64,000 nucleotides of DNA from assembly GCF_005491705.1 (NCBI RefSeq), contig NZ_CP028092.1, positions 3,596,001 through 3,660,000 of the forward strand, read 5' to 3'. A program made the translations under genes and the position numbers. Source of the stretch: Pontibacter sp. SGAir0037. GTDB taxonomy: Bacteria > Bacteroidota > Bacteroidia > Cytophagales > Hymenobacteraceae. The notes beneath the pieces are model-generated. The model was given only the letters and a program-made list of their open reading frames with translations, searched no databases and had not been told where the DNA came from. Below are positions 47,411 to 50,143 of this stretch, piece by piece (position 1 is the stretch's first letter; the number at the start of each line of letters is the position of its first letter).

Positions 47411-49042
47411 ATGCAGACAGACTTTGCCGTTAGTGGCCGCATCATCGATATCCACAACCAGGAAATCTTTGAAGGTACGGTTCAAGTTTCAAACGGAAGG
47501 ATAAAAAAAATAGTTCGTGAGGCTACCGATGCTACTCATTATATTTTACCGGGCTTTGTAGATGCCCACGTGCATGTAGAAAGCTCTATGCTGGTGCCAA
47601 GAGAATTTGCCAGGCTGGCTGTGGTACACGGTACGGTGGCTACCGTTTCCGACCCGCACGAAATCGGGAATGTGCTTGGCCTGAAAGGCGTTGAGTATAT
47701 GGTAGAGAACGGCAAAGAAGTGCCTTTTAAGTTTTACTTCGGCGCCCCTTCCTGTGTGCCGGCCACACCTTTCGAGACTGCAGGTGCTGAAATTACCGCA
47801 GCCGATATAGAGCAGCTTTTTAAGCGCGACGAAATAAAGTACCTGGCCGAGATGATGAACTGGCCCGGAGCACTCAACCGCGATCCTTCTGTAATGGAGA
47901 AAATAGAACTGGCCAGGCGGTATAACAAAGCTGTAGACGGGCATGCACCAGGTTTACGCGGCGAGCAGGCTGCCCAGTATGCCTCCGCTGGCATCACCAC
48001 CGACCACGAATGCTTTACAGCAGACGAGGCACTGGACAAGCTGGCAGCAGGCATGAAAATTTTGATACGCGAGGGAAGTGCCGCTAAAAACTTTGAAGCA
48101 CTCATCGGCTTACTTCCTTTGTACCCGAATGAAATGATGTTCTGTTCCGACGATAAACACCCCGATAACCTGGTGGAGGGGCATATTAATTTGCTGGTAA
48201 AGCGTGCCTTAAGCAAAGGCCATAACCTGTTCCAGGTGTTGCAGGCGGCATGCGTTAACCCTGTGCAGCACTACAAACTGGAAGTGGGCTTACTGCGTGA
48301 AAATGATGCTGCTGATTTTATCCTGGCTGATAATCTGGATAACTTTAATGTACAGGCTACTTACATTAACGGCGAGTTAGTAGCTGCAAATGGCGCTACC
48401 AGAATTGCATTCGGCCATAGCGAAGAAATTAACAACTTTCACACAGCGCCTAAACAGCCTGCACAGTTTCAGGTTTTAGCAGAAGAAGCAAACAGGATAA
48501 GGGTAATAGAAGCATTTGACGGGCAACTGATTACCAAAGAAGCCTGGGCAGCGCCAAAGGTAGAGAGCGGCAATATTGTGTCGGACACGTTGCAGGACGT
48601 ATTAAAGATAACGGTAGTTAACCGCTACCAGAACACAGCCCCTGCCGTTGCTTTTATAAAGAATACAGGGCTACAGCGTGGAGCTATTGCCTCCTCCGTA
48701 GGGCACGACTCCCATAATATTATTGCTGTTGGTGTAGATGATGAAAGTATCGCCAGGGCAGTAAACCTGATTATTGAAGCCAAAGGAGGTGTATCGGCTA
48801 TTGACGGAGAACAGGAACAACTGCTGCCCTTACCCGTAGCAGGCATTATGTCGGCTGCAGATGGCTATAAAGTTGCAGAAGCTTATTCTGCCATTGATAA
48901 AATGAGTAAGGAAATGGGCAGCAAACTGGTTTCGCCATTCATGACACTCTCATTCATGGCTCTTCTGGTGATTCCATCTCTCAAGCTAAGCGATAAAGGC
49001 TTGTTTAACGGTGATACGTTTGAGTTCGTACCAGTATATTAA
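47411..49042 (+). CDS. ade: Adenine deaminase
   Basis: 543 residues of the amidohydrolase family. Metal and substrate motifs: [61 protein letters not shown] and [15 protein letters not shown], then the C-terminal [20 protein letters not shown]. Converts adenine to hypoxanthine. The stop TAA (49040-49042) overlaps the first octamer of a repeat element, so the last residues may have been affected by its insertion, though the end ([10 protein letters not shown]) looks family-like. Confidence 0.97.
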
Positions 49043-49291
49043 TGTGCTAATTAGTTAATGTGTTAATTTGCTAATGTGGAAATCTAGAAATTTATGAACG
49101 AGAAGATAACGTTCAAGTGGTAGCTACTTCTTTAGACTTTAAGAAAACACTATACCTTTTTGAAGCCATTAGGAATGATAAAGAATATATAAAAAAGATG
49201 GTCCCAATTTTCTAATCATCAATATTTCAATTTTTACATCTTCCTATCTCCACATTAGCACATTAACTCATTAGCACATTAACTCATTAAT
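49038..49291 (+). repeat. Element bounded by inverted five-octamer arrays
   Basis: Left arm 49038-49079 and right arm 49250-49291 are 42 bases each and 35/42 complementary. Each arm is a single base plus five tandem octamers of the type YTAATKWG plus G. The interior (49080-49249) is 170 bases and carries an orphan open frame (49075-49215, no usable start). The left arm includes the ade stop codon; the right arm ends six bases before the TTG of the next gene. Confidence 0.75.
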
Positions 49292-49297
49292 AATCTT

Positions 49298-50143
49298 TTG
49301 GAAGGAATCCTGATATTTCTGGTAGGTATAATAGTAAGCGCTTTCGGTACGATCATCGGGTTTGGAGGGGGCGTATTTATGGTACCTATTCTGATTATCT
49401 TTTTCCGGTTTAACATTGAAACGGCCATTGGCACTACTATGTCGGCTATGGTACCGGGAGCTATAGTGGCATCTTTGTTTAATTTCCGCGACAAAAGCAT
49501 CGATTATCTAGTGGGTACGCTTATCCAGCTTCCGGCTGTGGCTGGGACCATAGTAGGTGCTTTCCTGGTTGCCTCCCTGCCGGTATCGGAACTACAATTA
49601 GCTTTTGCGCTCTTTGTGCTTGCAGTAGGCATCTATATGTTTTCTTCCAGAAGCCAGAAAGTAAGGGTGCGCCATACAGGCATTATGTACCGGATGCGGC
49701 GTGCTCCCACTTCCTTTATCAGGAAAAACAAAGCCAAGCAGATGGCTTACCGTCTTAATGCCGGGTTGGTAACTATTTTCGGATTTGGATCGGGCGTTAT
49801 GGCCGGGCTGTTTGGCATTGGAGGCGGGTTCATTCAAACTCCTATCATGATCAAGCTCTTCCGAATCCCTTACCAGATTGCCACTTCAACTTCTCTTTTT
49901 ATATTGGTTATTACCAGTTGTACGGGACTGTTGAGCCACTACCTGCTCGGCAATGTGCACTGGAATCGTAGCCTGCCTTTGATTGCTGGCTTTGCTTTAG
50001 GGGCACTGGCAGGTAACCTTTTTAAGAAGAACAGACCTCCCATTCAGAATATCGAAAAACTGATCGGGATAGGTTTGTTTCTGGCAGGTATAGGTGTTAT
50101 CCTGAACCTGATTATAAAAGCTAACTTCGGTTTCTCTTTCTGA
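49298..50143 (+). CDS. Sulfite exporter TauE/SafE family protein
   Basis: 281 residues with about eight membrane helices in two repeats, each starting with a GIGGGF-type signature: GTIIGFGGGVFMVPILIIFF and VMAGLFGIGGGFIQTPIMIK. A soluble basic loop (SQKVRVRHTGIMYRMRRAPT) separates the halves. The family exports organosulfur or sulfite anions; substrate here unknown. Starts with TTG at 49298 (MEGILIFLVGIIVSAFG), only six bases after the octamer element. Confidence 0.93.
   Translation: MEGILIFLVGIIVSAFGTIIGFGGGVFMVPILIIFFRFNIETAIGTTMSAMVPGAIVASLFNFRDKSIDYLVGTLIQLPAVAGTIVGAFLVASLPVSELQLAFALFVLAVGIYMFSSRSQKVRVRHTGIMYRMRRAPTSFIRKNKAKQMAYRLNAGLVTIFGFGSGVMAGLFGIGGGFIQTPIMIKLFRIPYQIATSTSLFILVITSCTGLLSHYLLGNVHWNRSLPLIAGFALGALAGNLFKKNRPPIQNIEKLIGIGLFLAGIGVILNLIIKANFGFSF

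Follow-up and report, generated by a model that had tools for sequence, protein, structure and literature searches.

Inverted tandem-octamer arrays at gene boundaries in Pontibacter and their association with PF05635 proteins

The intergenic element between ade and a TauE/SafE gene

The window analyzed in this study is a 64-kb stretch of the genome of Pontibacter sp. SGAir0037. In it, the ade gene (47411-49042, + strand; PF13382, adenine deaminase C-terminal domain) is followed by a gene of the TauE/SafE family (PF01925; 49298-50143, + strand) with a TTG start. The gap between the two holds two arrays of five octamers each, inverted with respect to one another. The left array, TTAATGTG CTAATTAG TTAATGTG TTAATTTG CTAATGTG, occupies 49039-49078 on the + strand, and the right array, TTAATGAG TTAATGTG CTAATGAG TTAATGTG CTAATGTG, occupies 49251-49290 on the - strand. 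An earlier, sequence-only reading of this DNA had described an inverted pair with five full octamers per arm, and this is borne out: the arms 49039-49080 and 49249-49290 match as an inverted repeat at 35 of 42 positions, and the match drops to 12 of 42 or fewer once the register is slid by 1-3 bases. Degenerate units continue both arms inwards, on the left as GAAAT... units (49079-49092, + strand) and on the right at 49229-49250 (- strand), with which the paired arms reach 54 nt; the extended arms 49039-49092 and 49229-49282 are 78% paired, and the RNA fold of the element has a predicted energy of -64.5 kcal/mol (z -5.6).

The element is fitted tightly between its neighbors. The ade stop codon TAA (49040-49042) forms bases 2-4 of the first TTAATGTG unit, and each arm contains stop codons in all six frames, both as proposed earlier; the right arm also abuts the TTG start at 49298, with a gap of seven bases rather than the six given before. 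Likewise, the enclosed interior (49081-49248, no strand assigned) measures 168 bases, not 170. A relic of a PF05635 gene, i.e., of the 23S-rRNA-intervening-sequence (S23) protein family of four-helix bundles, was sought in this interior and rejected (best blastx E 0.42), and a search of 48500-49800 gave no Rfam match. Scanning the 64-kb window for octamer arrays (threshold 17) returned nothing beyond the two arms. The pattern YTAATKWGYTAATKWG, with up to two mismatches, has 10 matches in the window, eight of them exact and within the element; 100 shuffled versions gave 3.26 matches on average and 8 at most.

Distribution and placement of arrays in genomes

The octamer type of the window element, with its TTAATGTG/CTAAT spelling, is called type D in the following. 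In the 5.38-Mb genome from which the window comes (G000), the two-unit pattern YTAATKWGYTAATKWG has 58 matches with at most one mismatch, as opposed to 3 for the backward pattern, so that octamers no commoner than base composition predicts, an outcome that would have spoken against the element, did not materialize. The 25 regions around these matches yielded 24 loci with 37 arms in all; most lie right up against a gene end, and 12 loci have arms in both orientations. Placement was scored in this genome and in three others that carry the gene discussed below (G009, G025, G027), which together provided 65 regions, arms at 64 of them, and 101 arms. Of the 98 arms for which an outward gene was found, 73 have no more than 15 nt between the outer edge of the array and the edge of the gene, and for inner edges the figure is 7 of 100; these counts are approximate, since gene edges were called from whichever open frame is longest, regardless of strand, and a few of the calls are wrong (by eye, the right arm of L182 and the left arm of L184). 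Gene 3' ends account for 60 of the 98 arms, with a median gap of 0. At 29 of these 60 ends the stop codon is within the array, and 25 of the 29 stops take up positions 2-4 of the first unit (TAA in 23, TAG in 2), with one in the second unit and two in the third, so that arrays begin at a set position relative to the stop codon rather than randomly in frame. Some housekeeping genes, such as ade and CoA-transferase subunit A, owe their 3' ends and stop codons to arrays. The all-frame stop property behind the suggestion of a stop block is real in the window, and the first-unit stop is in use at 25 of 60 gene 3' ends, but the property does not generalize: the heptamer GAATTAC found elsewhere is stop-free in both senses, and some other units are stop-free in one sense (both by eye).

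The modal number of units per arm is five (33 of 101 arms), and the medians are 4.4 for arrays of period 7 and 4.6 for those of period 8. Of the 64 loci in the D-array scan, 34 have arms of a single orientation, and divergent gene contexts make up 2 of 30 pairs. Neighboring units are imperfect copies of each other. Two arms of one element match on average at 24.58 of 32 positions versus 23.63 for permuted arms, a value reached in 2 of 5000 permutations (139, 2 and 1 of 5000 for comparisons over 24, 32 and 40 nt); the arms of one element resemble each other more than do arms of different elements, and the effect is significant but small. Among the 26 interiors of at least 40 nt, a match over most of the length exists only between two that bear a gene. 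The other blast matches are short and involve five interiors of G027 (L187, L188, L189, L190, L193), L201, and L215 of G025.

Some additional repeats were noticed at these loci. In G027, the interiors of L187, L188, L190 and L193 have up to about 85 bases in common, possibly a second small repeat. In G025, composite arrays (L202, L206, L216, L203, L210) run in phase from D octamers into GAAATTTG/GAGATTTG-type octamers or a GGTTAAATTG-like array, with the appearance of one unit type having overgrown another from the gene edge, and another intergenic repeat, containing CTCCGGAGG and ATTAGAATAATT, lies beside D arrays at L213, L214, L217 and L221.

The same junctions in relatives

No D array was found at the ade junction of 39 relatives examined (29 + 10). 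The junction is not one of random AT-rich sequence common to all relatives, the other outcome that would have counted against the element: by eye, a GAGTTTAG-like array begins at the ade stop in G034, G061, G012, G013 and G020. Downstream of atpD (the next gene is presumably atpC), an inverted array fills the short gap in 13 species, G009 and 12 relatives (by eye). Its units are of the TTAATGTG/CTAAT spelling in G009, GAGTTCT-like in four species, AGTTAAG-like in four, CAGTTAT-like in three and GTTCCGG-like in one, and both arms change spelling together between species. At a convergent junction, a terminator-like hairpin is conserved among relatives while the arrays around it differ in type, with D arrays in G009 and GAAATTTG-type arrays on both sides in G014 and G005; arrays were not seen there in G004 and G002 (by eye; 8 loci inspected). 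Unit spelling, then, turns over while the architecture stays.

A PF05635 gene among the D arrays

About 2.99 Mb from the window, at C1:656780-657234, the same arms as those of the window element enclose a PF05635 gene (C1:656856-657161), which also matches TIGR02436. The nearest relatives of this D protein, 71-78% identical, are found in exactly four other genomes of the 50 surveyed in the genus, and in all five carriers the gene lies between D arrays. Octamers were counted in 37 of the 50 genomes, and the five carriers are the top five (exact p 2.3e-6), with 74 in G025 (P. beigongshangensis), 58 in G027, 19 in G000, 18 in G018 and 12 in G009 (Pontibacter indicus LP100), compared with 0-6 in the other 32. 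On the ade tree (40 of 41 genomes, one being without a match), four changes of state are seen for the D gene, and in all four independent pairs the array abundance agrees; there are only five carriers and four changes, and four pairs are too few for a sign test to reach 0.05.

In the four carriers other than G027 the gene resides at the junction of the CoA-transferase genes, which we take to be scoA/scoB. In G027 this junction has a D array without a gene, and the D gene has a fabH-like gene on one side and an iron-dependent-repressor gene on the other: it has moved in this genome, or been replaced. The PF05635 DNA of G027 is shared with a record named Botryobacter ruber.

Period of the arrays across the PF05635 family

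Matches to PF05635 are present in 116 of 148 genomes sampled across Bacteroidota. When periods of 4-12 were allowed, flanks of PF05635 genes had period 8 at 88 loci, 7 at 50, 6 at one and none at 22, out of 161 loci (157 unique, four being duplicates of genus loci; 75 of the 80 loci of one sample were taken in, and five near contig ends were left out). Period 7 or 8 was thus seen at 138 of 161 loci versus 10 of 322 control windows, which were drawn from the end portions of these loci (three 8s, seven 7s). Period changes on the protein tree number 4 versus 33-47 in 50 shuffles, 5 versus 17-24 in 200 shuffles when the large named set is removed, and 6 versus 40-57 in 200 shuffles when cyanobacterial and other plasmid genes are added. 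Period, 7 or 8, is a property of the protein clade.

With spelling ignored, the left and right flanks of a PF05635 gene give a best inverted match with a median of 17.6, versus 9.5 for flanks of different loci, and this match exceeds the 99th percentile of 792 cross pairs at 35 of 66 loci, a fraction diluted by some wrongly chosen frames (e.g., L155, L171, L180, longer than 700 aa). A further comparison of PF05635 loci was made with the four G055 loci and L265 (the same gene as L113) dropped. Among plasmid PF05635 genes, 18 were taken of 44 matching records (15 cyanobacterial, and one each from Gemmatirosa, Azospirillum and Riemerella), and all 18 have flanks of period 7 (14) or 8 (4). Compared with their own shuffles, 18 of 18 flanks are above the 95% point and 12 of 18 above the 99% point; as for inverted matches, 9 of 18 are above the 99th percentile, and the Oscillatoria array pair is not inverted.

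Three other unit types trend the same way with their own genes (p 1.9e-4 for A, 6.1e-4 for B and 1.7e-3 for E); their carriers were recognized partly from the arrays adjoining the gene, which raises the counts by a few. Array-rich genomes that lack the matching gene exist for each, with counts of up to 135 for B (G215; 71 in G012), up to 73 for A (G031) and up to 27 for E (G025); the A, B and E units follow their genes less strictly, with many exceptions. Units are shared between different junctions in 21% of 226 pairs of proteins at least 55% identical and in 0.3% of 965 pairs below 45%, but when junctions are permuted as blocks the observed value is reached in 15 of 300, and we do not rely on this link. 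The corresponding comparison at the same junction is uninformative because neighboring coding sequence falls inside the compared windows. The association of PF05635 genes with arrays of period 7 or 8 is, in our view, secure.

Relation to described systems

REPIN/RAYT systems and BIMEs consist of short intergenic inverted repeats, with many gene-less copies whose abundance is tied to one protein gene among the repeats, and the D arrays are similar in all of these respects. RAYT, however, is a Y1/HUH single-strand transposase, whereas PF05635 is without a known catalytic site and no transposase domain was reported for the gene in the D arrays (PF05635/TIGR02436); also, the units are tandem 7- or 8-mers (8 nt in the window element) as opposed to palindromes of 20-40 nt.

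The 23S rRNA intervening sequences (IVS) share with the Pontibacter elements a PF05635 ORF within inverted, stem-forming ends and the replacement of a stretch between functional parts of an RNA or gene, and in Coxiella burnetii heptamers GACAGAT are found just upstream of the S23 ORF (PMC4990558). The window element has such inverted stem ends, but IVS are located in rRNA helices and excised by RNase III (PMC4990558), while the Pontibacter elements lie between protein genes, their arms are built of arrays, and gene-less copies are spread genome-wide. The family itself is described in the same account as having no known function (PMC4990558).

Short intergenic arrays of 7- or 8-nt units are known from separate reports on cyanobacteria, on Xanthomonas and on Beggiatoaceae, with no common cause given. 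Rehm et al. (2015) described heptamer arrays, GGGAATC in Xanthomonas and GGGGA(C/T)T in Nostoc; four units are preferred, 70 inverted pairs exist in Xcc, and, as in Pontibacter, arrays are near or overlap stop codons on the sense strand (PMC4692102). These arrays were explained by G-quadruplexes (PMC4692102), which AT-rich TTAATGTG cannot form, the units TTAATGTG/CTAATNNN being devoid of the G-tracts of which four are needed. The TAACTGA heptamers of Beggiatoaceae, cyanobacteria and some Bacteroidetes (MacGregor 2015, PMC4679880) are tandem 7-nt units just upstream of start codons that sometimes overlap ORF ends; unlike the Pontibacter arms they are described as direct arrays, almost never in inverted pairs. 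A search of Rehm et al. (PMC4692102) for names of the PF05635 protein gave nothing, and in MacGregor (PMC4679880) no PF05635-family partner is named, the terms 23S, S23 and intervening having no matches. Our search of the published literature found no paper that links a PF05635 protein with arrays; the association of D arrays with one PF05635 clade among the genomes counted suggests a partnership of protein and repeat that is undescribed. The earlier statement that no such family is described can stand for the system as a whole, but not for its parts, in view of the Coxiella IVS heptamers, Xanthomonas GGGAATC and the TAACTGA arrays.

Protein model and interpretation

The D protein is modeled as a four-helix bundle (pLDDT 94), with TM scores of 0.72-0.84 to 2rld and 0.76-0.81 to 2gsc, both of which are structures of five chains; Xcc0516 (2gsc) is reported to be a homopentamer in the shape of a torus (PMC4990558). 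PF05635 has been noted to resemble Avd of diversity-generating retroelements (PMC10053308). The D model would share with Avd the fold and the pentamer, with a TM of 0.68-0.69 to 4dwl, but the Foldseek E of 0.45-0.48 is not significant alone, and sequence matches to Avd models are limited to L092, below the model cut-offs.

The window element probably belongs, as a copy without the gene, to a family of inverted tandem 7/8-nt arrays that work together with PF05635 proteins. It has tandem inverted arms of this kind and no PF05635 gene between them, and the cognate PF05635 clade is found elsewhere in its own genome; the class is extraordinary, but within it the window element is unexceptional. In the mechanism that we propose, a pentameric, Avd-like ring of PF05635 would bind about five units of array DNA or RNA, one per protomer, as suggested by the five or nearly five units per arm. 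The protein, with a host or other enzyme, would copy or maintain arrays in trans at intergenic edges, and gene-less arrays might persist as satellites in the fashion of REPINs with RAYT. The spread of gene-less arrays in gene-bearing genomes, cf. REPIN/RAYT, suggests this action in trans, which is likely but unproven; causation between arrays and gene could also run the opposite way. Counting against the proposal are the small number of carriers and independent changes, the array-rich genomes that lack the matching gene, the weak link of spelling with protein identity, the loci with arms of one orientation, and the array pairs of G055 and Oscillatoria that are not inverted. More tentatively, PF05635 proteins may be pentameric readers, perhaps writers, of a tandem 7/8-nt code, each clade fixing the period and preferring its own spelling, and in trans spreading or rewriting inverted arrays at intergenic edges genome-wide; we would put this wider proposal at somewhat less than even.

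Three other explanations deserve attention, and we regard none of them as likely. Tandem repeats grown by slippage could drift in intergenic DNA, with PF05635 genes sitting among them and hairpin-templated repair keeping the arms alike. The fast turnover of spelling at one junction between species, the modest resemblance of arms and the imperfect copying of adjacent units are as such a process would have them, but one spelling at 24 loci of a genome around mostly unrelated interiors, periods confined to 7 or 8 (with one 6) that follow the protein tree, and an abundance of D units that tracks a gene clade are not, and we consider slippage improbable. We give still less credence to a classical MITE, in which arms and interior would move as one unit, served in trans by an IS transposase. 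Inverted termini, multiple intergenic copies and a patchy occurrence among relatives are all MITE-like; nevertheless, a MITE with a shared interior is rejected, as only the two gene-bearing interiors among the 26 are alike over most of their length, arms stand alone at 34 of 64 loci, the convergent-junction hairpin is common to relatives while the flanking arrays differ in type, and no target duplication was found among genomes that offered no close empty site.

The remaining explanation is a host regulatory device, i.e., stop-abutting hairpins that stall ribosomes or block 3' exonucleases in the manner of E. coli REPs and are kept by selection, with PF05635 as an RNA-binding regulator. The placement at gene 3' ends, the strong fold and the paucity of divergent contexts agree with it, and REPs within 15 nt of a stop codon are reported to down-regulate translation (PMC12306157). 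On the other hand, the element is missing from the ade junction in 39 of 39 relatives examined, which makes the window copy dispensable, the two arms at convergent pairs would fall on different transcripts, and one-sided arrays are common; a device of this kind is about as doubtful as slippage. Of the three possibilities raised by the sequence-only reading, a regulatory structure is compatible with the data, in that the arms pair and partners co-vary, and a non-autonomous mobile repeat comes closest to the evidence, given the 24 loci in the genome, the absence from the ade junction of 39 relatives and the octamer abundance that tracks one PF05635 clade, though not as a MITE-like copied cassette, since interiors are mostly unrelated and arrays bracket native DNA.

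The link between PF05635 and the arrays gives each of them a partner and would explain the 7- or 8-nt units. If the proposal is correct, cyanobacterial STRRs (grouped here with TAACTGA-type arrays), the Xanthomonas GGGAATC arrays, the heptamers of 23S IVS and the octamers of Bacteroidota would form a single undescribed class of transposase-free systems, selfish or domesticated, each made up of a protein and its repeats.

Additional observations on PF05635 loci

In G055, which does not belong to the genus, a PF05635 gene (L112) has TTAATGTG octamers on its flanks although its protein is only 18% identical to the D protein, which speaks against a strict match of unit and clade; its TTAATGTG/TTAAGGTG arrays, of 5 and 21 units, are both in one orientation. 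Another PF05635 gene of the Pontibacter sp. SGAir0037 genome (L061, C1:3660273-3660461) lies just beyond the right end of the window and has flanks of period 8. Some PF05635 genes have internal stop codons, so that the gene decays and the arrays remain. On three cyanobacterial plasmids (L413, L414, L417) the PF05635 gene is wedged between CRISPR genes, cas6/cas4 in two records and cas10/cmr3 in one, and the gaps beside it are filled with heptamer or octamer arrays.
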